Shown here: positions 13,684 through 63,272 of the stretch, in pieces
Numbering within the stretch: the stretch's first letter is position 1
Layout of the letters: every line of letters starts with the position of its first letter
Assembly: GCA_012960245.1 (NCBI GenBank)
Contig: DUBO01000044.1
Span: 1-64,000 of the forward strand
Origin: Candidatus Binatota bacterium
GTDB lineage: Bacteria; Desulfobacterota; Binatia; UBA1149
DNA length: 64,000 bases
Reading direction: 5' to 3'
Translations under genes and position numbers: made by a program
Notes under the pieces: model-generated
What the model saw: only the letters and a program-made list of their open reading frames with translations
Databases searched by the model: none
Told to the model about the DNA's origin: nothing

Positions 13684-15365
13684 CGAGGCCCTGACCGGGC
13701 GCGATCTATCATGGAGCGCGTTATCTCGCTTCCCAGCACGAACGACACCACCATGTAGCAAGCGCCCCCGGCTCCCACCAACAACGGCAACGCCGTTAAA
13801 GCTCCACCCGGCAGCTGGGCGACCAGGGGCTTAGCGACAAAGAGCACGGCGCCCATGACCGCAGTGGCCACGAGTTGAACCATCAGCTCGCGGTTAATAA
13901 TCCTTCGGCCGAAATCCGGAAACTGCCGGGCCACGAAAAAGAACAGGACCGCAGCGTTGCATATTGAAGCCAGTGCGGCCCCCAGGGCGAGCCCTGCGTG
14001 GTCGAAGTCGGCCACTCCCATAAACTCAACCGCGCCGGCCAGAGCCTGGCCCGCCCACCAGTCCACGGGCCTGACAGCAGGCCCCATGAAAGCAACGTCA
14101 AAAACTACATTCGCTACCAGTGCGACAACAGCCGCCATTACCGGCAGCGATGGCTTTTTCATGGCGTAGAACACGTTAACAAGCACCCGGACTGAAGCCA
14201 CGCCAAGTAGGCCCAGGCTGCTCGCGCGCAGCGCGAGCGCCGTGGCAGCGGTGTCAGCGGCAGAAAACTGCCCGCGCTCAAAAAGAGCAGACACTATCTC
14301 CGGCGCCAGCAACCACATAGCCAGGGCCGCGGGAATACACAGCGACCACGCCATCTGCAGCGACCAGGCGAGGCTGGCTGCCATGCCCCGGGTATCGCCG
14401 GCTGCAGCCTGCTCACTCAAACGGGGCAGCGCTGCCGTTCCTATGGCAACGGCGATTATGCCCAGCGGAAACTCAAATATTCGATCAGCGTACCAGAGCC
14501 AGGATACGCTGCCCTCCTGGAGCACAGAAGCCAGGATGGTCGATACCAGCACGTTGATCTGGTAGACCGCTGCTCCAAAAACTGCGGGGCCCAGGAGCAC
14601 ACCCACCTGCCTGACAGCCGGATGGGTCGGCCGCCACGAAGGCACTGGGTTTATCCCCTCCTTCAGCAGCGACTTGATCTGTACAGCAAACTGGAAAACC
14701 CCGCCCACGAGGACCCCCACGACCAGAGCCATCACGGCGGGTACAAGCCTCTCGGCCAAGGCGACCGCCGCGATAATAATGCTGATATTCAATAGCACGG
14801 GGCCGGTGGCGGGCGCTGTGAAGCGCCGATAAGAATGCAATGCCCCCATGGCCCAGGCTGCCATCCCCACCAGTAACAAGTACGGAAACAGCGCCCTGGT
14901 AAGCATTACCGCCAGTTCAAACTGGCCCGCATCAGCCGAAAAACCCGGGGCAAAAACCGAGACCACTTCATCAGCAAATAAGACCCCAGTCAGCGTCAGG
15001 AGAAGCAGGCCAAGCAACGCGGCGCCGCCCACAGCAGCGATGGCGCGATTGCCCTCAAGTCTCCCCTGCCTTCCGATAATCCCACTGAAGACAGGAACAA
15101 AAGCGATGCTTGCCGCCCCTTCGGCCGCTACACGGCGAAACAGATTGGGGATACGAAAGGCAACAAAAAACGCGTCCATGCCACCCGAAGCGCCAAAAAG
15201 GCCGCCAAGAACGATATCCCGCGCGAGACCGGATACCCGGCTCACCGCGGTCAACGCCCCCACCCTGACAGCGCCGCCTGCTATTCCGCCCGCAGCGTCA
15301 CTGTCCGCCTCGTGGCTGGCTTGACCGGACCCGCCGCGCTTGTTAATGTCTGCGATTCCGGTCAC
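13674..15365 (-). CDS. murJ: Lipid II flippase MurJ (MviN)
   Basis: 563 residues and about 14 membrane helices. The N-terminal part ALTAVSRVSGLARDIVLGGLFGASGGMDAFFVAFRIPNL is the MurJ signature, including the Arg residues of the central cavity. The MOP-superfamily protein flips undecaprenyl-linked peptidoglycan precursor across the inner membrane. About 30 charged or polar residues precede the first helix, slightly longer than usual, so an internal start is possible. It is divergent from rpsT, a neighbour found in many proteobacteria, with 83 bp between. Confidence 0.93.
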   Translation of the reverse strand: MTGIADINKRGGSGQASHEADSDAAGGIAGGAVRVGALTAVSRVSGLARDIVLGGLFGASGGMDAFFVAFRIPNLFRRVAAEGAASIAFVPVFSGIIGRQGRLEGNRAIAAVGGAALLGLLLLTLTGVLFADEVVSVFAPGFSADAGQFELAVMLTRALFPYLLLVGMAAWAMGALHSYRRFTAPATGPVLLNISIIIAAVALAERLVPAVMALVVGVLVGGVFQFAVQIKSLLKEGINPVPSWRPTHPAVRQVGVLLGPAVFGAAVYQINVLVSTILASVLQEGSVSWLWYADRIFEFPLGIIAVAIGTAALPRLSEQAAAGDTRGMAASLAWSLQMAWSLCIPAALAMWLLAPEIVSALFERGQFSAADTAATALALRASSLGLLGVASVRVLVNVFYAMKKPSLPVMAAVVALVANVVFDVAFMGPAVRPVDWWAGQALAGAVEFMGVADFDHAGLALGAALASICNAAVLFFFVARQFPDFGRRIINRELMVQLVATAVMGAVLFVAKPLVAQLPGGALTALPLLVGAGGACYMVVSFVLGSEITRSMIDRARSGPRQP

Positions 15366-28738: not shown

Positions 28739-29227
28739 TCAGGCAGCCTTTTCCGAATCGCCGGCTTCGCTTTCGCCGAAGCCGAGGTCTTCGAGATAGT
28801 CGACCTTCTCAGCGCCGGTCATGATGTAAACGCCTTGCCAGCCGCAGACTTCTTCGCAGAGTTTGCAACCAACGCATTTTTTTTCGTCAACCTCGACCAG
28901 CCCCAGGTAGATGGGACCGGTGTTCCCCGGGGCCGGGTACAACGCGTCGAACGGGCAGACATCGATACAGACTCCGCAGCCATTGCAGCTGTCGGGGTTG
29001 ATCACGGCGATAGGACGTTCGACCTTCTTGAGCACCGAGGTCATCTGGCCGAAGGTGTCGAGAATCGAGTCGTCGGGGCAGATAACGCCGCAGGCACCGC
29101 AGTCAATGCAGCTGGCGGCTTCGATGATAAAAGCTTCGCCCTTCCGGCCACTTATGGCCTGTGTAGGGCAACGCTGCTCACAGGCGGTACAACCCGTGCA
29201 GTTCTCTGCGATTATTCGGTACGGCAT
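28739..29227 (-). CDS. Ferredoxin with four [4Fe-4S] sites
   Basis: 162 residues with four CxxCxxCxxxC motifs: CTGCTACEQRCP, CIDCGACGVICP, CNGCGVCIDVCP and CVGCKLCEEVCG; the last ends in Gly instead of Pro. It is therefore a polyferredoxin of two tandem 2[4Fe-4S] units, cytosolic, with a charged acidic C-terminal tail. It is 21 bp downstream of a small membrane protein, with which it may form a membrane-associated electron carrier. Both are at the distal end of the polysaccharide operon, but a functional link to polysaccharide synthesis is not evident. Confidence 0.88.
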   Translation of the reverse strand: MPYRIIAENCTGCTACEQRCPTQAISGRKGEAFIIEAASCIDCGACGVICPDDSILDTFGQMTSVLKKVERPIAVINPDSCNGCGVCIDVCPFDALYPAPGNTGPIYLGLVEVDEKKCVGCKLCEEVCGWQGVYIMTGAEKVDYLEDLGFGESEAGDSEKAA

Positions 29228-29248: not shown

Positions 29249-29461
29249 TTATCTCTGCATATCCACCAGTATTTCTTCTTCACGGCCTTCGCGGATCAGC
29301 TTGTCGTTGTGCAGCGCCTGCCGCATCCCCACCCAGGTAAAAAACCCGACCAGCAGCAGCGCTCCCGCTACCGGCATATTGTCGGGCTTGGAAATGATCT
29401 CGACGAACTGACCCCAAGCGGTCATCTGGTGCGGCGAAGCTGCTGCAGACAATAAAAACAA
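29249..29461 (-). CDS. Small single-span membrane protein next to ferredoxin
   Basis: 70 residues if started at the TTG at 29461, which has GGAGG 7 bp upstream; the frame is open to 29527 and also has an ATG at 29425. The conserved-looking core is WGQFVEIISKPDNMPVAG, then a membrane helix (ALLLVGFFTWVGM), then a charged cytosolic tail RQALHNDKLIREGREEEIL. I recall similar small proteins near respiratory or ferredoxin genes in deltaproteobacteria but know no function. Position suggests it anchors the adjacent ferredoxin. Confidence 0.6.
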   Translation of the reverse strand: MFLLSAAASPHQMTAWGQFVEIISKPDNMPVAGALLLVGFFTWVGMRQALHNDKLIREGREEEILVDMQR

Positions 29462-29549: not shown

Positions 29550-30497
29550 TCACGCTGAAGAGCCTTCGTGGCGCAAAGCAAATGCTTGCCAGGTAAGGCC
29601 CATACCTTCGCCGAAACTGACGACAGGTGAGTAGTCCAGTGATTTTTCAGCCTTGCTTATGTCCGCCAGCGAGTCGCGCACGTCCCCCTGTCGGGGGGGG
29701 CCATGAACCCGCTCTACCCGTTTACCGGAAGCGTCTTCGATGGCGGCCAGTATATTGAGCAACGAATAACGTTCGCCACAAGCGACATTGAACACGTCAC
29801 CCACGGCGTCGGCCCCGGCTTCCAGAGCGAGCAGGTTGGCGCGGACGACGTTGGCGACGTAGGTGAAATCCCGTGTCTGTTCACCGTCGCCATCAATGGA
29901 TGCACTGGTAGCGGCCAGGGCGCAATGCATGAAAGCCGGTATCACGGCCGCGTATGCTGAGTCCGGCCGCTGGCGAGGACCAAAAACGTTAAAATAGCGA
30001 AGCGAGACCGTTTCGAGCCCGTAGATACCTGCAAAAACCCGTGTATAGTTTTCGGCGGCCAGTTTACTTGCCGCGTAGGGCGAAACCGGCGCCGTAGGCA
30101 AGGTTTCAACCTTGGGCAAAGCAGGGTTGGCTCCGTAGACGGACGATGAAGACGAATATACAAGGCGCCGAACGCCGGCATCTCGAGCGGCGATCAACAC
30201 GTTAAGTGTCCCGTTGACGTTCACGGCATGACTAGTCGCGGGGTCATCTATCGAACGCGGAACCGAACCAAGAGCAGCAAGGTGCAAGACGCTGTCAACT
30301 CCGACCATGGCCCGCGCTACGGCATCGCTGTCGCGTATGTCACACTCCCTCAGGTCTACCTCGCCGCCGAGATCTTCGATGTTGGATCGCAAACCATTAG
30401 AAAAATCGTCGACCACCCGCACTTCGTCCCCGCGCGCGAGCAACGCCTCTACAATATTCGAACCGATGAAGCCGGCTCCGCCCGTTACCAGGATCAT
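29550..30497 (-). CDS. NAD-dependent epimerase, UDP-hexose(NAc) 4-epimerase-like
   Basis: 315 residues, extended short-chain dehydrogenase fold. NAD binding is by VTGGAGFIGSNIVEAL; VDDFSNGLRSN and LAALGSVPRSIDDP are typical of the WbpP/GalE branch, and the catalytic residues are SSSSVYG and YAASK. The C-terminal region FNVACGERYSLLNIL fits UDP-N-acetylglucosamine/UDP-galactose 4-epimerases. It would supply a galacto-configured sugar for the polysaccharide. It is the last sugar-related gene of the operon, 13 bp after a GT2 gene. Confidence 0.85.
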   Translation of the reverse strand: MILVTGGAGFIGSNIVEALLARGDEVRVVDDFSNGLRSNIEDLGGEVDLRECDIRDSDAVARAMVGVDSVLHLAALGSVPRSIDDPATSHAVNVNGTLNVLIAARDAGVRRLVYSSSSSVYGANPALPKVETLPTAPVSPYAASKLAAENYTRVFAGIYGLETVSLRYFNVFGPRQRPDSAYAAVIPAFMHCALAATSASIDGDGEQTRDFTYVANVVRANLLALEAGADAVGDVFNVACGERYSLLNILAAIEDASGKRVERVHGPPRQGDVRDSLADISKAEKSLDYSPVVSFGEGMGLTWQAFALRHEGSSA

Positions 30498-37400: not shown

Positions 37401-38678
37401 TCAACTCGGGCTGTCCCGTCCCTTCAGGCGTGACTTTTCGGTCCGACCGGTCTTTTCCCCCGGCCAAAGCGAACCCCTTTCAGTATGAACGTTTTTCATG
37501 CGGCGGTACACAGTTTCCAGCGCCGGTGTACCGTTTTTCCACGTCATTTCACGCTCGAAACGGTCGCGAGCCGCCGCAGCGAGTCGCTCGGCGAGGCCAC
37601 TCTCCTTTTCCAACCGCTCTATACAAAAAGCCATCGCGAGCGCATCACCGTCAGCAAACAGCAGCCCGTCCTTGTCGTGAACCAGAACTTTGCCCCCACA
37701 ACCCGCGCTCACCACCGGCCGACCACTAGCAAGGTAGTTGAGCAGCTTAACCGGGTAACCCGAACCCACCGGCCTCGGTAACACCAGCAGGTCGGCCGCG
37801 GCAACCACCAATCGGGTGTCGGCGTAAGTGCGGCAATGGTGGACTTCGAACAAACTGCGCTCCGATTCCGAACACCGCTCGCGCAGGCTCTCCACGCGCC
37901 GTCCCTGTTGGTGAGTTGCAAGCAGCAGCACTGCCTCTCTCGCGGGCCTCGACCGCTTGTACGCCAGAATACCCCCGATCGCCGTTTCAATATCCTGGTA
38001 GGCGTCAAGGTTACCGCAATAAGCTATGACCAGGCGACCGTCGGCCAGTCCGAGTTCGCGCCGTGCCGCCTCGCGGTCGGCAGCCGGCTCCTGGGCCTCG
38101 ACAGACGGGGCGAGCACCGTCATTCTCTCGCTACTTACCCCGGCTTGTTCGAGAATCCCCGCCGAATAATCACAGAGCGCAACCACGTGGTCGGCGCGCC
38201 GAGGCAACTGGCGGTCGACCAACTGTCCCGCCCGGGTCGCAAGGCGGCGCGCAGCGGAACGTCGAAAGTATGTCGGGAGTTCGTCGCCCATGAGGTTGTG
38301 ACTGTGGTAAAGCAACTTGAAGCGCGAGAATTTCCTCGCGACCAGTGCAACGGCCAGTGCTTCGTAATTGTGCGCGTGAACTATTTCTACATGCCGATTC
38401 TTTACCAGCTTGAGCAGGGCCACGACCATGGCGAGATCAAGAAAGGGCTTGGCGAGGGTCGGACCCGAGCGGACACGAGAATCTCCAGGCAAACGTGGCA
38501 GGCGCAGATGCTCACAACCCGCGGGTGATTTACCTTCGCCGCTGCCGTAAGTGAGCAGGCTCACGCAATGGCCACGCGCCGCGAGACTCTCCGCCATCTG
38601 ACCCACAAAAACCTGCGAACCCTGGGGGGCCGGAAACGGGCAAGCCGCGACCAGGGCAATACGCATCCTGTCACTCAC
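37401..38678 (-). CDS. Family 4 glycosyltransferase
   Basis: About 425 residues from the GTG at 38678, which overlaps the preceding stop as GTGA; an ATG lies four codons later and a longer frame upstream runs through the neighbouring gene. N-terminal half: MRIALVAACPFPAPQGSQVFVGQMAE. Donor half: IAYCGNLDAYQDIETAIGG, LVLPRPVGSGYPVKLLNYLASGRPVVSAG. The motif pattern is GT4 with a lysine (GYPVKLLNY) in place of the first Glu. The C-terminus is rich in Lys, Arg and Gly and probably disordered. Confidence 0.85.
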   Translation of the reverse strand: MSDRMRIALVAACPFPAPQGSQVFVGQMAESLAARGHCVSLLTYGSGEGKSPAGCEHLRLPRLPGDSRVRSGPTLAKPFLDLAMVVALLKLVKNRHVEIVHAHNYEALAVALVARKFSRFKLLYHSHNLMGDELPTYFRRSAARRLATRAGQLVDRQLPRRADHVVALCDYSAGILEQAGVSSERMTVLAPSVEAQEPAADREAARRELGLADGRLVIAYCGNLDAYQDIETAIGGILAYKRSRPAREAVLLLATHQQGRRVESLRERCSESERSLFEVHHCRTYADTRLVVAAADLLVLPRPVGSGYPVKLLNYLASGRPVVSAGCGGKVLVHDKDGLLFADGDALAMAFCIERLEKESGLAERLAAAARDRFEREMTWKNGTPALETVYRRMKNVHTERGSLWPGEKTGRTEKSRLKGRDSPS

Positions 38679-40360
38679 GGGAGATAACCCAGGTCGCGTA
38701 AACGATCGGCCAGCTCGTTCTCTGCTGCCGGTGAGCGCTGCCCATCGACGGTAGCAGGCGCCACCTCGACCTCGCGAAGAGCGCGATCCGGGACCCTGAG
38801 CTGCTCCTGCCACGGTTTTCCGTCGGCGCCGTCTAAACGGGATATGCCCGCCGGAGCAGATGGTACACCGAGGCCAAGCAGCGCGAGCATGGTCGCGCCA
38901 GCGTCGGCAAGACGGCCCTCTTCGCCCCGCCCCGGCAAAACGCCTGGGCCGACCATGGCAAACATCCCGAGATCGCGGTGACAGCCCGGCATGCTGCTGC
39001 CACGTTCGCCACTCATCTCGCGCGAGGTCATCCGACGAATCGACTGCCGCTCTGCCCCGGCCCGGCTGTTGCCTCCCGCGTAACTGTAACCTCCAGGTTC
39101 GCGAAGCTCCAAGACAAGGTCGGGCGCTAACTCCGCGTGGGGGCCGTCAAATAATTCAGCCCTGCTTCGCACCCGTTCGACCACGGGGAGTCCGTCTTCG
39201 GGATCCCGCCACTCGAGCAACTCGGCAACAAGCTCCCCGGTCATCGCCGGCAGGTCGGCGGGGTCAACGATCCCGCCCGGCTCTCTTCCCTTGAGGTTGA
39301 ACCATAACGACGGGTAGTAGTTGAGTTCCTCGCTGTAGACCCTGGTCCCGCTCCAATCGATACCGCCGAAGCGCGACGCGCTTTCCATCCTGTTGACCAG
39401 GGGCCGCAAGCGCGAAAACAAGCTCGCCTGCAAAGAGGGCGGAGCCACTGCCATAGCTGTTCGCTTGGCGACCGAAGCCAAGGCCCCGAGCCCACCTGTT
39501 TTCTTGAACCCGAGCCAGCCGTTGTCGGCCAGGAAGCGATTGAAGAACAAGGTCCTGTTCGAGCTACCACCGCTGCCGTGGTCAGACAGGAGAAGCAGGT
39601 CGCTGTCCTTCCCCGTTGCTTCCAGCAGGCGGCCGAGAGCGCGGTCCACGGCGCGGTAAACCTGAGCGATAGCGTCGCCGGGTCCTGCTTCGCTGTAGCG
39701 CGGGGACTCACTATCGTGGAACTGCCAGAAGTGATGGCCCACCGTATCGGTTTCGCCGTAGTGCACCGCAAAACAATCGAGATCATTGGCGGCAAGGAGG
39801 TGCAGTGAGATCTCGGTACGGAGTTCGATGTCGCGAAGCATCTGTTCGAGTGCGCGCTCGTGCCAGCCGGCATCAATACGGGACTGCTGCGGACCACTGA
39901 CGGCCAGGTCACCAAAAAGGCGTTCCAACTCACCGGCCAGGCCGGGCGGCGATGACCTGCGTGCCTTGTCGCCGGCGCCCATAGGGGTGTCAAAGCCGCA
40001 AAGCTGGAACGCCGATAGCTCTTCGGGTGGCCAGGTCGCCGGGAAACCGTAGACGCCCACCTGCAAGCCGGCCGCCGACATGGCCGCCCAGGCCGATGGC
40101 AGACAACGGTCTGCCGAACTCGCAAATCGGACTCCGTATCCCTGCTTTCTCAGGGTGAAATCGAGTATACCGTGCCGCGACGGAGAAGCGGCGGTCATAA
40201 AAGACGTCCAGGCCGGAAACGTTACCGCCGGCACCGTAGAGCGCAGCGGCCTGCTCGCACCGCGGGCGAGGACATCGGCCAGCACCGGCATGCTACCGTC
40301 TGCGATCCACGGCCGGGCAAGTTCGAAGCTTGCTCCATCCCAACCGACTACGAGAAGCAT
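38675..40360 (-). CDS. Alkaline-phosphatase-superfamily protein, type I phosphodiesterase/nucleotide pyrophosphatase-like
   Basis: 561 residues. Metal ligands and nucleophile are visible: VVGWDGASFELARPW (Asp), PAVTFPAWTSFMTAASPSRHGI (Thr nucleophile region), HYGETDTVGHHFWQF (Asp, His) and LLLSDHGSGG (Asp-His). No signal peptide is evident, so it may act in the cytosol or at the membrane. Family members cleave phosphodiester or pyrophosphate bonds; the substrate here is unknown. The end mentions of MLALLGLGVPSAPAGISRL are typical for the family. It lies 2 bp after a sulfatase-fold gene. Confidence 0.85.
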   Translation of the reverse strand: MLLVVGWDGASFELARPWIADGSMPVLADVLARGASRPLRSTVPAVTFPAWTSFMTAASPSRHGILDFTLRKQGYGVRFASSADRCLPSAWAAMSAAGLQVGVYGFPATWPPEELSAFQLCGFDTPMGAGDKARRSSPPGLAGELERLFGDLAVSGPQQSRIDAGWHERALEQMLRDIELRTEISLHLLAANDLDCFAVHYGETDTVGHHFWQFHDSESPRYSEAGPGDAIAQVYRAVDRALGRLLEATGKDSDLLLLSDHGSGGSSNRTLFFNRFLADNGWLGFKKTGGLGALASVAKRTAMAVAPPSLQASLFSRLRPLVNRMESASRFGGIDWSGTRVYSEELNYYPSLWFNLKGREPGGIVDPADLPAMTGELVAELLEWRDPEDGLPVVERVRSRAELFDGPHAELAPDLVLELREPGGYSYAGGNSRAGAERQSIRRMTSREMSGERGSSMPGCHRDLGMFAMVGPGVLPGRGEEGRLADAGATMLALLGLGVPSAPAGISRLDGADGKPWQEQLRVPDRALREVEVAPATVDGQRSPAAENELADRLRDLGYLP

Positions 40361-40362
40361 CG

Positions 40363-42231
40363 CTACTCCATGTAGCCCAGCGCCCGCAATCTCTCGCGAG
40401 ACGCATCGTCCAGCTCTCCTTCACTGCCCTGTACCGCTGACGCTGCAGCCACGACCCGCAGGGCTTCGAGGTCCCCCAGCATCTCGGCGACAATCGCCGG
40501 CTGCTTCCCGGCCAGGTTGGCGATCTCCCGCGGATCGGCGAGCAGGTCGTACAACTCCACCGGTTCGAGGCCCCGGGGGTTACCCTCGTTTGCCAAGACG
40601 AGCTTCCATCGCTCGCCACGTATCGATTCGAGGACGTTTCCCTCGTGGTCTTCTTCGGCGTACACGCCGGTTGGCGCCTTGGTATGACCAAAAAGATCAC
40701 GACCCTGCCAACCCCCGGCAGCCGACAGGCCTGCGGCCGCCGCCACTGTAGGTGCAACGTCGAGTAATCTTGCCAGTCCATCGTCGCTGCTACCGGCCCG
40801 CGCTGCCCCTGGCAGTTTAATTATCAGCGGCACTCGCAGCTGCTCCTCGTACAAGGTGGTACCATGCCACCAGCCACCGTGCTCGTAGAACTCCTCTCCG
40901 TGGTCCGCCGTAAACACGATCAGTGTGTCATCGTAAGCGCCGGCTGTCTTCAGGGCGCCGATCAACTGGCCCACGAAAACATCGAGATACTCGACGTTTG
41001 AACGGTATAGATCTCGCAACTCGCCGGCCCTTGATGGGTCGGGGTGCGGCGTTTCAACCCGCGCAACCGCCCGGCCGTTGTATGGAAGCTCAAAATAAGG
41101 GTCGTGCGGATCCATGTAGTGCACAAGCGCAAAAAACGCCCCCTCGTCAGCCTGGTCCAGCCAGGGCAGCGACGCCCCGTTCACGGTGGTGCCGTCCTGG
41201 TAGTAGTGGTCAACCTGCTTGCTGCCAGACAAGAACCGCTCGCGGACCAGGCGCATGCCGCCGTAGAGAGCCAGCTTGGAACCGGAGTCGGTGGCGCCGA
41301 AGAAAAAGTTCGGTGCGAGGTAGCGATAGACATCAAAGCCCTGCTCGAAACTGAACGAAGGGGCCACGTTGATGTTAGTTACAAAACCACCGGTCGCGTA
41401 ACCGTTGTCCCCCAGGTGTTCGGCCAGCGTGGTCACCTCGGACGGCAACAAGTCGGTCTTGTGCATGACCTGGTGAGACGCGGGGTACATGGAGGTCAGG
41501 ATGGTCGCTATCGAGGGACGCGTCCATGACGACTGCGCCGTGGCGTTCTTAAAAACTACCCCGTCAGCAGCCAGCGCGTCCAGCGAAGGGGTCGTGGCCA
41601 ACCCGGCGCCGTAAGCTCCAACGTGATCCGCTCTCAGCGTGTCGGCGATTATCAGTAAAACATTTGGGCCCGTGGCGGAGCCAACATCAACCACGTCGTC
41701 ACCGCCCTCGCCACCAGCATAAAACGTCACAACGACTCCCAGCAACAAGGCCGCTGCAACAAGGCCGCCGCAGGTTCGCGCTGCCGTCAACGCGTCGCCC
41801 TTATCCTGAACCCGACGCTGGACGACCGCGCGCAGCAGCAGGAACAACAGCAGTGCGCCGACCAGGAGCCCCAGGTGCACTGCTATGCCGCTGGGACTGG
41901 CAAGCGGCAGGTTCTCGGCGAAGAGATCCCTGGTGATACGAAATTTCGAAACGACCAACCCCAGTGAAGCGGTCACCAGTCCGGCGGCAACAGCCTGGGT
42001 AGATTGTTTGAGCGCCGGTAGCGGCAACACCGCGCAGAGCAGCCCCCAGCCGCCACCCATGACTGCACCCAGCAGGCCGTAGCTACAGGCAGCAAAGAAA
42101 AACACCCAGTACTCGGCGGCACCACCACCGGATGCGATGACCCCACCCTCGACCACCCCGACAAGGGCCCCACCGGCAAAACCACCGGCAGCTCCCGCAA
42201 ATATTCTTCCCAGCAAGCTGTTCAAACCCAC
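40363..42231 (-). CDS. Membrane-anchored sulfatase-family protein
   Basis: 622 residues. About five membrane helices (first ~160 residues) are followed by a sulfatase/alkaline-phosphatase-fold domain starting NVLLIIADTLRADHVGAYG (metal-binding Asp). The nucleophile region is SSWTRPSIATILTSMYP, lacking the C/SxPSR formylglycine signature, so it is not a classical FGE-matured sulfatase. FTADHGEEFYEHGGWWH supplies further ligands. The topology resembles LTA-synthase or phosphoethanolamine-transferase-like enzymes. It could add or remove phospho- or sulfo- groups on the polysaccharide. The 55 bp upstream have no visible promoter. Confidence 0.82.
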   Translation of the reverse strand: MGLNSLLGRIFAGAAGGFAGGALVGVVEGGVIASGGGAAEYWVFFFAACSYGLLGAVMGGGWGLLCAVLPLPALKQSTQAVAAGLVTASLGLVVSKFRITRDLFAENLPLASPSGIAVHLGLLVGALLLFLLLRAVVQRRVQDKGDALTAARTCGGLVAAALLLGVVVTFYAGGEGGDDVVDVGSATGPNVLLIIADTLRADHVGAYGAGLATTPSLDALAADGVVFKNATAQSSWTRPSIATILTSMYPASHQVMHKTDLLPSEVTTLAEHLGDNGYATGGFVTNINVAPSFSFEQGFDVYRYLAPNFFFGATDSGSKLALYGGMRLVRERFLSGSKQVDHYYQDGTTVNGASLPWLDQADEGAFFALVHYMDPHDPYFELPYNGRAVARVETPHPDPSRAGELRDLYRSNVEYLDVFVGQLIGALKTAGAYDDTLIVFTADHGEEFYEHGGWWHGTTLYEEQLRVPLIIKLPGAARAGSSDDGLARLLDVAPTVAAAAGLSAAGGWQGRDLFGHTKAPTGVYAEEDHEGNVLESIRGERWKLVLANEGNPRGLEPVELYDLLADPREIANLAGKQPAIVAEMLGDLEALRVVAAASAVQGSEGELDDASRERLRALGYME

Positions 42232-58051: not shown

Positions 58052-58762
58052 CTAGTTTCCTATGTTCGGAAGCCGCGTGCTCGGCTCCCTGATGGGTATC
58101 AGTCCGCGAATGTACTGATCAACCCAATTGTTGGCGTTGGCGATCCAGGTACGGGGCACGAACACCACGTCATTGGGTCCCAGCAGCGCATCGGCGCTGG
58201 CATCTCCGTCTTTTATCATTGCTTCAAGGTCGAGCCTGTCGGCTTCGTAAGCACCGGGCCCCTTCCAGCGAACAAGCAGCACGCTGTCAACCTTGGCCGT
58301 GCGCTTGAGCCCGCCGCGCTCAACTATGGCCCTGAAGGAAGTCATACCGGGCCTCAGTGACACATAGCCGGGATCCCCGACTTCGCCACCCACGTAGACG
58401 CGCCTGACCGCCATCTCACGGATCACCACGCTCACAGTGGGTTCACGGTAGGTCACCGACGCCCTGCTCAGCAGGTCCCTGCTCAAGTCCCAGGTCGTCA
58501 GGCCGGCCGCCCTGAACTCCCCGAGGGAAGGCACGCCAACGTGGCCATCACTCCTGACGGTGGCCACGGTGTCCAGCTCCGGGTGGAAAGGAAACTTGAT
58601 ATCGATCACGTCGCCCACCACCACGCTGTACGGCAGCGTACTCCCGTCGGCCGCCAGGGCCTCCGAGGGGATAAATGGGCCTTTTGTTAATTCCATGGCT
58701 GCCGAGCAGCCCGAAAGCACAACCGCCGTTACCAGGATTAAAGTTCTGATTATCGTCATCAT
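58052..58762 (-). CDS. Polysaccharide export lipoprotein (Wza-like, SLBB)
   Basis: 236 residues. The signal peptide ends in the lipobox VVLSGC. PYSVVVGDVIDIKFPFHPELDTVATVRSDGHV is the Poly_export domain, followed by SLBB-like domains (RRVYVGGEVGDPGYVSLRPGM). The C-terminal helix of E. coli Wza is not evident, so the outer-membrane passage may need another protein. It is the first gene of the 30-kb operon; a sigma-54 promoter lies 71 bp upstream of its start (computed start point). Confidence 0.9.
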   Translation of the reverse strand: MMTIIRTLILVTAVVLSGCSAAMELTKGPFIPSEALAADGSTLPYSVVVGDVIDIKFPFHPELDTVATVRSDGHVGVPSLGEFRAAGLTTWDLSRDLLSRASVTYREPTVSVVIREMAVRRVYVGGEVGDPGYVSLRPGMTSFRAIVERGGLKRTAKVDSVLLVRWKGPGAYEADRLDLEAMIKDGDASADALLGPNDVVFVPRTWIANANNWVDQYIRGLIPIREPSTRLPNIGN

Positions 58763-58843: not shown

Positions 58844-58859
58844 AGCAAATATAATGCCA
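58844..58859 (-). promoter_or_regulatory. Sigma-54 (-24/-12) promoter of the polysaccharide operon
   Basis: The minus strand reads TGGCATTATATTTGCT, matching TGGCAC-N5-TTGCW at all but one position, with correct spacing of GG and GC. The predicted start point is near 58833, 71 bp before the wza-like ATG. An NtrC-family activator is encoded 2.4 kb upstream. Confidence 0.75.
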
Positions 58860-59023
58860 CGATATCCCCCATCTGCGGGGACCTTTCTTCCCCCGACCGG
58901 GGGGGGATTCCCACCCATCTGGCCGCTCGGGCACCCCGCCCGGGTGGGTTTTTGTGATTATGGAGCTTCATCGATTAAACTGCCTTTATTCGTTGCCGGA
59001 GGCTCGGCCCCGACTCTGCGTCA

Positions 59024-59037
59024 TTGCATAAACGCAA
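59024..59037. promoter_or_regulatory. Activator-site candidate TTGCA-N4-CGCAA upstream of the wza-type promoter
   Basis: TTGCATAAACGCAA fits the motif TTGCA-N4-YGCAA found also before the sigma-54 activator gene. Its centre is about 198 bp upstream of the predicted sigma-54 start point, a normal distance for an enhancer-binding protein. Confidence 0.5.
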
Positions 59038-59066
59038 GGCTGGGCGTTTCCGCACTGCCGCGTCAC

Positions 59067-60899
59067 TCAAGCCCCGGGTATCGAGGCGGGCGAAACATCA
59101 GTGGCCAGCTGGCCCGCGGGCTCGAGGCTTGCTTCGTGTACCGCTGAGTTAACAACGAGATCGGCCACGCGAAGCGCCGAATCGCGATCGCCGAAGCCGA
59201 CCGCGAACAGACCCAGTCCGCGTCCGTCTTCCAACCTGCGAGTCTTCAAGGACACCCCTGCCTTCTGGCTCGTCACGAGATCGCGCATACCGTCAAGGCG
59301 TTCCAAACTAACGCTCGCCACCAACAGTACCTGCCAGCTGCCGGGCTTGCCGGTGCTGACCATTGCCCGCGCGTCGTTGAAAGGCAGGAACAGGGTACCG
59401 CCAACCGCCAGCTTCCTGGGGTTACCCAGCTCAGGGTTGGCTTCAAAAATACGATCCAGCGTTGCCGGAAGAGTGTTTCCGTAAGCCGCCTCGGCGATGT
59501 CCCAGATCGTATCGCCGTTTTTGACCACCACATCCCTACCCGCAGCTACACCTGCGCCCGCAGTTATGTGCAAGGCCGGGTTTGCCGGGCGACTGGTATC
59601 GTAGAGTCTCGCGGCGGTTGACCTGGCGAGTATCGCTGCGAGCCGCGTGCTGGCAGAAACACCATCGAGGCGTTCCTCGCTGGGCTTGCTGGCGAACGCG
59701 GTAGCGGCTGCTTCAGCGCCGAGCGCCTCAGGCGAGGGGCTTGCCAGGATACTGCCGGTCAATACGGGCAGCTCCGCGGTTTCGCTCGCCGTAACAACGG
59801 ATCGCGTGTCCACTTCCTCGACCCGGCTGACAACTGCAGCCGCCGAGGGAAAGCTTTTCTCGGCGACAAAAGAGAGCGCCTCGACCGCAGGGACTGGGGG
59901 GACAGCAAGCGCCCTCTCCTGCCCGGTGTCGGCCAATACGGGGTAAGCGGGACCTTCTGCCGCCTGCCCGGCCACGTTTGCCCAGGCGAAGCCCACTACC
60001 AACGAAGCGGCCACGGCCGCAAACGCTACACGACGGCCCTTTTGGCCCATAGCGCAGCGCATGCGGGCGATCGCCGCCCAGGAGCCAAGCCCGGTGGAGC
60101 CCTCCACATCGCGCACCGCTTCGTTCATCAGCCTGCACCCGACCCGCTTGCGTCCGGCGGCAAAAGCTATGAGCAGGGCGTTGTCACACACCACGTTCAC
60201 CAGGCGGGGTATCCCTGCCGAGGCCATCCACACCAAGCGGAGCGCCGTAGAACTGAACACGCCGACCTCTTTGCCACCCGCGCCCCTCAGGCGCGTGGTC
60301 ACGTAAGCGCTGATTTCGCTCTGGCTCAAGGGCTCCAGCCTCGCTCGAGTACCGATGCGCTGCTGCAGCTGCCGCAGCGAGGGATCCCTGAGTTTATCTT
60401 CGAGTTCGGGCTGTCCCGATAGAACTATCTGCAGCGTTTTTTCCTTGGATGTTTCAAGGTTGGTGAGCAACCTCAGGCCCTCGAGCACGGCGTTGGGCAA
60501 GGTCTGGGCTTCGTCTATGAGCACGACCACGTTGCGACCCTCGACCAGGGATTCAAGGAGAAAACCGTTTAACCTGTCGAGCATCCCGAGCCTGGCGCAG
60601 CCCTCAACGTCAAGACCGAGTTCCATGCAGATGTACTCGAGCAGTTCATCAAAACTGACGCCGGGATTAAATATAAACACCACCGTGCTCTCGTCCTGTA
60701 GCTCTTCGGCGACGCGTTTGAGCAGCGTGGTTTTACCAGTACCGGCCTCGCCCACCAGTGAGATGCAGCCCTTGCGCGCGCGTATCCCGTACAGCACTGA
60801 CGCCAATGCCTCCCGTGTAGTCGGGTTGACGTAATGAAAACGCGGGTCGGGTGTCAGGTTGAAGGGGTCTTCCGACAATCTGTAAAAATGAGCGTACAT
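59067..60899 (-). CDS. ExeA-like AAA+ ATPase with LysM and SPOR-like domains
   Basis: 610 residues. The N-terminal ~270 form an AAA+ ATPase of the ExeA/XrtA-associated type: YAHFYRLSEDPFNLTPDPRFHY, Walker A GEAGTGKTT (50-58), Walker B VVLIDEAQ (~125). A membrane helix (FAAVAASLVVGFAWANVAG, ~290-310) is followed by a long Ala/Ser/Pro linker, a LysM domain (VVVKNGDTIWDIAEAAYGN, ~458-508), and a C-terminal SPOR-like domain (SWQVLLVASVSLERLDGM, ~520-600). Topology: ATPase in the cytosol, LysM and SPOR in the periplasm binding peptidoglycan. It may couple export to the cell wall. It has its own sigma-54 promoter. Confidence 0.87.
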   Translation of the reverse strand: MYAHFYRLSEDPFNLTPDPRFHYVNPTTREALASVLYGIRARKGCISLVGEAGTGKTTLLKRVAEELQDESTVVFIFNPGVSFDELLEYICMELGLDVEGCARLGMLDRLNGFLLESLVEGRNVVVLIDEAQTLPNAVLEGLRLLTNLETSKEKTLQIVLSGQPELEDKLRDPSLRQLQQRIGTRARLEPLSQSEISAYVTTRLRGAGGKEVGVFSSTALRLVWMASAGIPRLVNVVCDNALLIAFAAGRKRVGCRLMNEAVRDVEGSTGLGSWAAIARMRCAMGQKGRRVAFAAVAASLVVGFAWANVAGQAAEGPAYPVLADTGQERALAVPPVPAVEALSFVAEKSFPSAAAVVSRVEEVDTRSVVTASETAELPVLTGSILASPSPEALGAEAAATAFASKPSEERLDGVSASTRLAAILARSTAARLYDTSRPANPALHITAGAGVAAGRDVVVKNGDTIWDIAEAAYGNTLPATLDRIFEANPELGNPRKLAVGGTLFLPFNDARAMVSTGKPGSWQVLLVASVSLERLDGMRDLVTSQKAGVSLKTRRLEDGRGLGLFAVGFGDRDSALRVADLVVNSAVHEASLEPAGQLATDVSPASIPGA

Positions 60900-60985
60900 A
60901 GCCTGCTGCCTCCGCGATGCTCGCTACCCGTTCGGTGCCTGCCTGGCTCCGAGCTCGGACGGGACTCCATCGCAGTGAGCAAATG

Positions 60986-61001
60986 AGCAACCGCCGTGCC
61001 A
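60986..61001 (-). promoter_or_regulatory. Sigma-54 (-24/-12) promoter of the ATPase gene
   Basis: The minus strand reads TGGCACGGCGGTTGCT, a full match to TGGCAC-N5-TTGCW. The predicted start point is near 60975, 76 bp before the ATPase ATG, which has GGAGG upstream. Confidence 0.82.
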
Positions 61002-61015
61002 TGCCCCCCCCTGTT

Positions 61016-61057
61016 GGGTAGGAGTTACCCCCCGAGTGGGTATTCCAGAAATACCCA
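61016..61057. promoter_or_regulatory. Two related inverted repeats upstream of the ATPase promoter
   Basis: GGGTAGGAGTTACCC (61016-61030) and TGGGTATT-N5-AATACCCA (61037-61057) share GGGTA/TACCC ends. They lie about 41-82 bp upstream of the predicted start point, between the sigma-54 promoter and the activator gene. They may be binding sites for a second regulator or for a DNA-bending protein; alternatively they are part of a transcription terminator for the activator gene, though no T-tract follows. Confidence 0.4.
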
Positions 61058-61148: not shown

Positions 61149-62573
61149 TCATTGCAGGCCTGCACGGCCAGGCGGGTAGTTACCCGACTCCCGGAACTCC
61201 TCGCGACGTAAACCGTGGGATTTCATCTTGCGGTGCAAGGTGGCCGCGTCGATCATCGCGTGTCCCGCGCTGACCGCTATGGCTCCCGCGTTACGCGACA
61301 GAAGGGACTCCAGGTACTCTTTTTCAGCGCGCCGGAGGTACTCTTTGAGCGGTAAGCGAAGGGTTCCGCTCGCCGCCTGCCCACCCATACCGCGGAGTTT
61401 ACCCGGGGCGGTTGAGGGAATTTCAATCTCCGACAAGGCCGTCCCCCTGCACTTGATAATGGCCCGCTCAACCACGTTTCTCAGTTCACGGATGTTGCCT
61501 GGCCAGTGGTAACTCATCAGTTCACGAAGCGTCTTGTTCGAGGTGCTCTTGATATGCCGTTCCACGGCTATCGGGTTTGATTTCAACAGGTCAGCCACGA
61601 GCAGGGGCACGTCCTCGATCCTGTCCCTGAGTGGAGGCAGGTCAACCGGCACCACGTTTATGCGGTAGAAAAAATCTTCGCGCATTTCGCCGCGCTCAAC
61701 CATCTGGTCGAGGTTCTGATTGGTTGCCGTTATTACCCGAAGATCTACCTTCAACAGCCGATTTCCGCCGAGTTTTTCGATCTCCCTCTGCTCCAGCACT
61801 CGCAGCAGCTTGAGCTGCATGGCCAGCGAGATGCTCTCGACCTCGTCGAGAAATAAGGTGCCCCCGCTGGACAGTTCTACCTTGCCCACACGGTCGGCCA
61901 CCGCGCCCGTGAAGGCTCCCCTTTCGTAACCAAAGAGCTCGCTCTCGAGCAGGGTTTCGGGAAAAGCCGCGCAGTTGATAGCCACGAAACGGCCTTCTTT
62001 GCGGCGACCCTGGTAGTGGATCGCCCTGGCTATGAGTTCCTTACCCGTACCCGATTCTCCAGATATGAGAACCGTAGCATCGTTGTGAGCAAGAGACTCT
62101 ACGGTCTCGAAGAGTTCGTGCATGACCGGGTTGCGACTGATCATGTTGGCAAACGAAAAACGTTCGCTCAGCTGACCACGCAGGTAGCTGATCTCGTCGA
62201 TCAGCTTGCGCTTCTCCATGACCTTTTCGGCAGCAAGAAGTATGTCTTCGCGCTCAAAAGGCTTGGTGATGTAATCTTCGGCGCCGTGCCGCATGGCTTC
62301 GACAGCACCCTTTATAGAGGCGTAGCCAGTGACGATGATCACCGGCATATCCGGCCAGCGCTCGCCAACTTCGGTCGTGAGGCTCAAGCCGTCGCTGCCC
62401 GGCATTTTCAAGTCGACCAGGGCCAGTGAAAACGCCGAGTCTTCGAGTAATTCCAGCGCCTCGCGAGCAGTCCCCGCGCACTCCACGGTGGCATTTCGCT
62501 CCCTGAAAAGGTCTTCCATCTGTCGACAGATCAAGGGATCGTCGTCAACGACCAGTATTCTCGCATTTTCCAT
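61149..62573 (-). CDS. NtrC-family sigma-54-dependent response regulator
   Basis: 474 residues. Receiver domain (1-120) with phosphorylation site Asp ~54 in ALVDLKMPGSDG; AAA+ domain with Walker A GESGTGKELIAR and the sigma-54 contact loop GAFTGA; a C-terminal Fis-type helix-turn-helix (AGAIAVSAGHAMIDAATLHRKMKSHGL). The segment resembles PrsR-type regulators of exopolysaccharide loci. No sensor kinase is encoded in the window. It lies beside two sigma-54 promoters and two palindromes in its own upstream region, consistent with autoregulation. The HTH is slightly unusual, with an extra stretch before the recognition helix. Confidence 0.93.
   Translation of the reverse strand: MENARILVVDDDPLICRQMEDLFRERNATVECAGTAREALELLEDSAFSLALVDLKMPGSDGLSLTTEVGERWPDMPVIIVTGYASIKGAVEAMRHGAEDYITKPFEREDILLAAEKVMEKRKLIDEISYLRGQLSERFSFANMISRNPVMHELFETVESLAHNDATVLISGESGTGKELIARAIHYQGRRKEGRFVAINCAAFPETLLESELFGYERGAFTGAVADRVGKVELSSGGTLFLDEVESISLAMQLKLLRVLEQREIEKLGGNRLLKVDLRVITATNQNLDQMVERGEMREDFFYRINVVPVDLPPLRDRIEDVPLLVADLLKSNPIAVERHIKSTSNKTLRELMSYHWPGNIRELRNVVERAIIKCRGTALSEIEIPSTAPGKLRGMGGQAASGTLRLPLKEYLRRAEKEYLESLLSRNAGAIAVSAGHAMIDAATLHRKMKSHGLRREEFRESGNYPPGRAGLQ
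61152..61165. promoter_or_regulatory. Weak activator-site candidate upstream of the ATPase promoter
   Basis: TTGCAGGCCTGCAC matches TTGCA-N4-YGCAA in 9 of 10 positions. It overlaps the end of the activator gene. Its centre is about 184 bp upstream of the predicted ATPase start point, a distance similar to that of the site before the wza-type promoter. Confidence 0.35.
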
Positions 62574-62686: not shown

Positions 62687-63076
62687 TCAGGAATCGAGGC
62701 CGACGTAACTGTCGGCTTCATCTGCCGCTAGTATCCGCTGCCGTGTAGCGACCGATCCCAGGCCCAGGCCTTCGCAAACGTTGTTGAAAGAAAAGGGTGA
62801 GTTCCAATCGTTGGTCTTGATCCAGAATTCGGCCTGCCGTGCCAGTATCTCCGGGTTCTGCCGGGGGCGTCGGAGCTCAAGGCGAAAGCAGGCAATTGCA
62901 TCCTCGAGAATAGCGAGCATGAGCGCCTGCTCAGGCGTCCACTCGATGTGCTTGTTGAACTCGTCGGGCTCCGGTCCCCCGCCGTAGTGAAAAATCTGGC
63001 CGCTGAGCCTCTCGCCGTCTAACTCTTTGCCCGCGGTGGCTACTGCTGCCTGTTGCTCGTTACAAGTCGTGTTCAT
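62687..63076 (-). CDS. Small protein, paralogue of the 11372-11752 protein
   Basis: 129 residues from the ATG at 63076, which follows GGAGGAAAGGGA; a longer frame starts 39 bp upstream. Family not named. The core EQALMLAILEDAIACFR, RQAEFWIKTNDW, FSFNNVCEGLGLGSVATRQRIL matches the protein encoded at 11372-11752. The last segment resembles a helix-turn-helix. It lies 113 bp upstream of the sigma-54 activator gene on the same strand and has its own TTGCA-N4-TGCAA palindrome, so it could be a partner or regulator of that system. Confidence 0.7.
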   Translation of the reverse strand: MNTTCNEQQAAVATAGKELDGERLSGQIFHYGGGPEPDEFNKHIEWTPEQALMLAILEDAIACFRLELRRPRQNPEILARQAEFWIKTNDWNSPFSFNNVCEGLGLGSVATRQRILAADEADSYVGLDS

Positions 63077-63106: not shown

Positions 63107-63120
63107 TTGCAGCATTGCAA
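63107..63120. promoter_or_regulatory. Palindromic operator before the small-protein gene
   Basis: TTGCAGCATTGCAA, inside the perfect 18-bp palindrome CCTTGCAGCATTGCAAGG (63105-63122), 31 bp upstream of the ATG. It has the same 7-4-7 layout as the palindrome at 62626-62643. Confidence 0.55.
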
Positions 63121-63272
63121 GGTCGCGGCCAGAAGGAGCTGCCGGATAAAAGGGGCTGTTTACCGGGGTAAACGCGGAAACCGCGCGCTATCAGCGCACG
63201 AACTTGAACGCTGGCGCAGGCTCGGCGCACAGCAATGAACGCGCGAACCGGACCCGGGCCGATCGCGTGCGC

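Follow-up and report, generated by a model that had tools for sequence, protein, structure and literature searches.

The locus studied here raises the question of how a long exopolysaccharide operon and the ATPase gene preceding it could be switched on. The window, i.e., the whole stretch of 64,000 nucleotides of a Candidatus Binatota genome that was analysed, carries the ATPase gene at 59067-60899 on the minus strand. Its product, which has a LysM domain, is related to the XrtA-associated ATPase (TIGR03015); the match to TIGR03015 is full-length and scores 249 bits, below the cut-off of 324.5. The first-pass annotation had placed one sigma-54 promoter before this gene and another before a wza-like gene. 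Both 16-mers were found at the claimed positions when the minus strand was re-read, and both have the invariant GG at -24 and GC at -12 with the right spacing. The two sites had been called near-consensus, which is true of the first, a perfect match, whereas the second is weaker, with two mismatches to TGGCACGN4TTGCW.

The site before the ATPase gene, TGGCACGGCGGTTGCT (60986-61001, minus strand), lies 86 nt 5' of the ATG and fits TGGCACGN4TTGCW with no mismatches. A first-order model trained on the window predicts about 0.025 perfect matches for the window and about 1.1 for the genome, where 12 were counted. When up to one mismatch was allowed, the genome gave 36 matches vs. 46 for the reversed pattern, i.e., no excess, and therefore only the perfect class is informative. 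The site also occurs in two genomes of the same genus (G001 and G002) and, within family f4, in two genera (G007, TGGCACGGCTGTTGCT; G005, TGGCACAGGCGTTGCT), lying 65 to 88 nt upstream of the ATG among the genomes that have it. It is the sole clearly conserved block at that distance in the gap upstream of the ATPase gene in two families of the order. A scan of 645 kb of related loci, counting both strands, returned three sigma-54 scores of 8 out of 8, and these are the ATPase sites of G001, G002 and G007. A sigma-70 scan of 18.8 kb around both promoters gave a single weak match, at 58787-58758, which overlaps the wza start. With a perfect site that is well placed and conserved across genera of two families, there is strong support for the predicted control of the ATPase gene by sigma-54, and 60986-61001 is very probably its promoter. 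The degrees of confidence expressed in this paper for the two promoters, the activator and the transcript are the author's judgement and were not computed.

The wza-like gene (58052-58762, minus strand), which encodes a polysaccharide export protein, is gene 1 of a predicted 24-gene Wzx/Wzy exopolysaccharide operon of about 29 kb, extending on the minus strand to a galE-like gene (29550-58762). The operon contains wza, wzz, a tyrosine kinase gene, wzy, wzx and an initiating transferase gene, along with glycosyltransferases and sugar enzymes, and the set by which a Wzx/Wzy pathway is recognised (wza, wzz, kinase, wzx and wzy with the initiating transferase) is clustered together. An unbroken gene run from 58762 to 28739 had been described. 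It is indeed tight and on the same strand as far as 29550 (gaps of at most 75 bp), but the described end is one gene too far: a terminator-like hairpin of 11 pairs (29349-29375, minus strand) follows the last operon gene, lying in a gap of 322 bp that separates the galE-like gene from the ferredoxin gene at 28739-29227. Because the hairpin and the gap precede the ferredoxin gene, the operon is considered to end at 29550. A single transcript over 58762-29550 is plausible and, in our judgement, likely. The gene order acd-RR-ATPase-wza-wzz-kinase is kept within the order, and most of the class-level loci read retain RR-ATPase, with wza farther along. Two sulfatase/phosphodiesterase-like proteins are encoded inside the operon (38675-42231); in class-level relatives, the pair is located between the ATPase gene and wza, together with a glycosyltransferase.

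The second site, TGGCATTATATTTGCT (58844-58859, minus strand), lies 81 nt 5' of wza. At up to two mismatches the window holds 16 matches vs. 12.2 expected, so that the match alone is at about the level of chance. Moreover, in the related loci scanned the site was absent from the other families of the order, being restricted to the genus, and families f3 and f4 showed no convincing conserved blocks between the ATPase gene and wza. Both the quality of the match and the lack of such a site in the other families would suit the explanation that only the ATPase promoter depends on sigma-54, the wza site being a chance match and the operon being transcribed by read-through of the ATPase gene or from some promoter that escaped recognition; the gap between the two genes, which is without a terminator-like site on that strand, would also suit it. 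However, the distance of 81 nt to wza is the same in each of the three genus genomes, the site being kept in G001 and having in G002 a form (TGGCACTATACTTGCT) nearer to the consensus, and its pair of upstream dyads matches that of the ATPase promoter in kind and spacing, which makes that explanation quite improbable. The case for the wza site rests on position, conservation within the genus and the shared dyad, because the match itself is about as frequent as chance would give. Sigma-54 control of the wza operon is thus supported less directly than that of the ATPase gene, and 58844-58859 can be regarded as its probable sigma-54 promoter. Because of the many G/C hairpins upstream of wza, a riboswitch or other structured leader RNA was considered there and rejected: no Rfam family was found at cut-off and the folding was not clearly above that of shuffles (z -1.46).

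The dyads have the form CCC-N6-GGG. At the ATPase promoter, the proximal copy is at 61007-61018 and the distal copy at 61029-61040, 22 bp above it. At the wza promoter, the proximal copy is at 58868-58879, with arms invariant and spacer variable in the three genomes, and the distal one, CCCCC-N4-GGGGG, at 58890-58903, 22-23 bp above. The proximal dyad begins 17 to 20 nt before the T of the -24 element at both promoters, and the second copy 22 to 23 bp higher. Seven of the 28 CCC-N6-GGG matches in the window, some overlapping, fall in these two promoter gaps. Across the three genus genomes, the composite of dyad and sigma-54 site was matched 14 times and the reversed control not at all. These matches are partly intracoding (that on contig C12 and its G001 relative), while others precede a gene for a secreted-looking protein on contig C13, conserved in all three genomes, and a small-gene paralogue on contig C36; the composite also precedes LuxR-type genes that are orthologous between two f4 genera. 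A dyad was located in the corresponding zone at two of the 11 further perfect genomic sites, vs. 0.055 expected (P = 0.0005); the motif had been noticed after the fact, and the shuffle test of the dyad at wza alone gave P = 0.08. No dyad was present at the G005 ATPase promoter.

If the two promoters share an operator, the dyad pair beside each -24 is the foremost candidate for it. The dyad abuts the -24 element and is closer to it than typical enhancers are; because of this short distance, the post hoc nature of the motif and the P value of 0.08 at wza, the protein binding it may be the adjacent regulator or another factor. The composite was rejected as a class-wide element, since its counts in most genomes outside families f1 and f4 did not clearly exceed those of the reversed control. 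The distal ATPase dyad is overlapped by a 19-bp perfect palindrome, GGGTATT-TCTGG-AATACCC (61038-61056), which is an alternative operator candidate.

It had further been claimed that the window held no other match of comparable quality. This claim did not hold, as five exact matches to TGGC-N7-TTGCW were found vs. 1.4 expected. Those at 14308 and 34941 are within coding regions, but TGGCCGCGACCTTGCA (63116-63131, minus strand) is intergenic, lies 40 nt before the small gene adjoining the activator and does not vary among the three genus genomes, which makes the claim wrong. This site is without the ACG of the consensus, overlaps the palindrome CCTTGCA-ATGC-TGCAAGG and has no dyad, and its assignment as a sigma-54 site is less certain. 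The small gene itself (62687-63076, minus strand; 129 aa, family not assigned) is located upstream of the regulator gene, and its paralogue (G000:C36, L199) follows a perfect sigma-54 site. The two proteins, of about 130 aa, have RQAEFWI and SPFSF.NVC in common and no Pfam match, and both genes are preceded by a sigma-54-like site.

Further sites of this kind were seen elsewhere in the genome. A gene for a small LuxR/GerE-type regulator (G000:C50:198419-198787, L214) has the sigma-54-like site TGGCACACATGTTGCT. Its orthologues in families f1, f2, f3 and f4 have such a site at a similar place (sites read in 10 of 13 genomes), and because four families share it, sigma-54 control of the LuxR-type gene is suggested to predate that of the ATPase gene. 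At L012 (G000:C51:112716), a perfect sigma-54 site is followed by a short ORF which starts like a Flp-type pilin (MTKILKRLRDDEQGAS), as judged by eye. At L193:8041-8884 (G000:C13), a perfect site with a dyad occurs in all three genomes with the gene of a secreted-looking protein of 206 aa, family not assigned, which is adjoined downstream by an ABC transporter and glycosyltransferases.

The gene of the sigma factor required by such promoters, rpoN, is present in this genome and, this genome counted, in 57 of 58 related genomes. The GAFTGA activator reported next door was also recovered: the gene at 61149-62573 (minus strand) encodes an NtrC-type response regulator with a receiver, an AAA+ domain with GAFTGA and a Fis-like C-terminus, in which PF00072 and PF00158 score above cut-off. 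GAFTGA is present in every orthologue read. The Fis-type helix-turn-helix gave no Pfam match; the Fis-like C-terminal region is conserved in the orthologues. We infer that this regulator is the likely activator of both promoters. Another activator of the genome could drive both instead, the promoters still being sigma-54 dependent and the adjacent regulator acting elsewhere; the dyads would then be the operator of that other activator, or of a co-regulator or repressor blocking polymerase at -24. There are candidates for this, as seven further AAA+ activators in the genome have substantial matches to the PrsR model (TIGR02915), and a dyad abutting the -24 element would be an unusual place for an enhancer. 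In addition, the regulator of family f3, which is orthologous and lies beside the ATPase gene, has retained GAFTGA and a C-terminal region that is almost unchanged, yet neither a sigma-54 site nor a dyad was found at the f3 ATPase gene. Nevertheless, the regulator adjoins the ATPase gene in most class loci read and the window holds no other activator, so control of both promoters from elsewhere in the genome seems unlikely.

In five genomes of family f3, a sigma-70-like TTGGG[AT]-N17-GATAA is located 70 to 83 nt upstream of the ATPase ATG instead. Beyond these five, the pattern has no match in the 645 kb of related loci scanned above, a count that is descriptive because the pattern was derived from the same sequences. 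It is possible, though doubtful at present, that a natural change of sigma factor took place in the order, in which one ATPase gene with its activator would be under sigma-54 in two families vs. a sigma-70-like promoter in the third, and in which sigma-54 control in this genus was extended to the whole operon through the tandem operator abutting -24.

The published system closest in layout is the PEP-CTERM/EpsH (XrtA) system, for which a scheme with PrsK/PrsR and a sigma-54 motif was proposed (Haft 2006, PMC1569441). As in that scheme, an NtrC-type regulator lies near exopolysaccharide genes, the sigma-54 sites have an upstream motif, and an XrtA-type ATPase occurs with export genes (PMC1569441). 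The locus might accordingly be an ordinary XrtA/PEP-CTERM locus whose regulator is PrsR, acting as it does for PEP-CTERM genes, and the relationship of its neighbours to TIGR03015, TIGR03027, TIGR03007 and TIGR03018 would agree with this. However, no match to the exosortase (PF09721) was detected in the three genus genomes, that of the window being 96% complete. PEP-CTERM (PF07589) also gave no match, but the control genomes were equally silent. The regulator reaches 363.7 bits against TIGR02915, for which the cut-off is 502.6, and ranks fourth by PrsR score in its own genome, three other activators being higher. On its 74-kb contig there is no match to the PrsK kinase (TIGR02916); a PrsK-like match was found on contig C60, where more than 1 kb separates it from another activator. 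Unlike those of the PrsK/PrsR scheme, the sites here precede the ATPase gene and the polysaccharide operon and not PEP-CTERM genes, and the published upstream motif, which ends in TTTACA (PMC1569441), differs from the dyad. Because no exosortase was detected, the PrsR score is below cut-off and the contig is without a kinase match, the locus was not filed as PrsR, and a standard PrsR/exosortase locus, which these searches contradict, is very improbable. The region G000:C60:171938-177126 holds the best PrsK-like kinase of the genome, a few kb from an activator that outscores the window regulator as PrsR.

Sigma-54 control near or of polysaccharide genes has been described in other bacteria. In Aquincola tertiaricarbonis, the PEP-CTERM gene pepA depends on RpoN1, and the polysaccharide biosynthesis genes are seemingly not regulated by it (PMC9850573). 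The present locus likewise has a sigma-54 promoter amid exopolysaccharide and XrtA genes, but differs in that a site precedes the wza operon too. In Myxococcus xanthus, EpsI/Nla24 is a sigma-54 activator of polysaccharide genes (PMC8316039), and DVU0110 and DVUA0057 of Desulfovibrio vulgaris are GAFTGA response regulators assigned to exopolysaccharide and biofilm operons (PMC4641369), to which the regulator studied here is similar in having GAFTGA and, probably, an exopolysaccharide operon as its target. In 2011, sigma-54 was proposed to be linked in general to the cell exterior (PMC3162934). As sigma-54 control of polysaccharide genes is already known, this locus is a credible further case of it.

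What can be read from the sequence comprises the predicted sites and their conservation, the dyads, rpoN, the activator domains and the operon layout. In the mechanism proposed, sigma-54 RNA polymerase would sit as a closed complex at 60986-61001 and 58844-58859. The regulator encoded at 61149-62573 would be phosphorylated by a kinase that is presumably unlinked, would bind the CCC-N6-GGG dyad pairs, and most likely would remodel the closed complex through its GAFTGA loop. The two promoters would then co-express the ATPase and the 24-gene Wzx/Wzy operon (58762-29550). That sigma-54 and the adjacent regulator switch on both jointly is, on the whole, the reading we favour, with some reserve.

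If this is true, the 29-kb Wzx/Wzy pathway would have an activator-gated single start in a lineage which has XrtA-type partners and no detectable exosortase, and this would suggest that the regulatory module is able to exist apart from the sorting system. The comparison between the sister families would also offer a testable case in which a promoter changes its sigma factor while the gene order and the activator remain constant.
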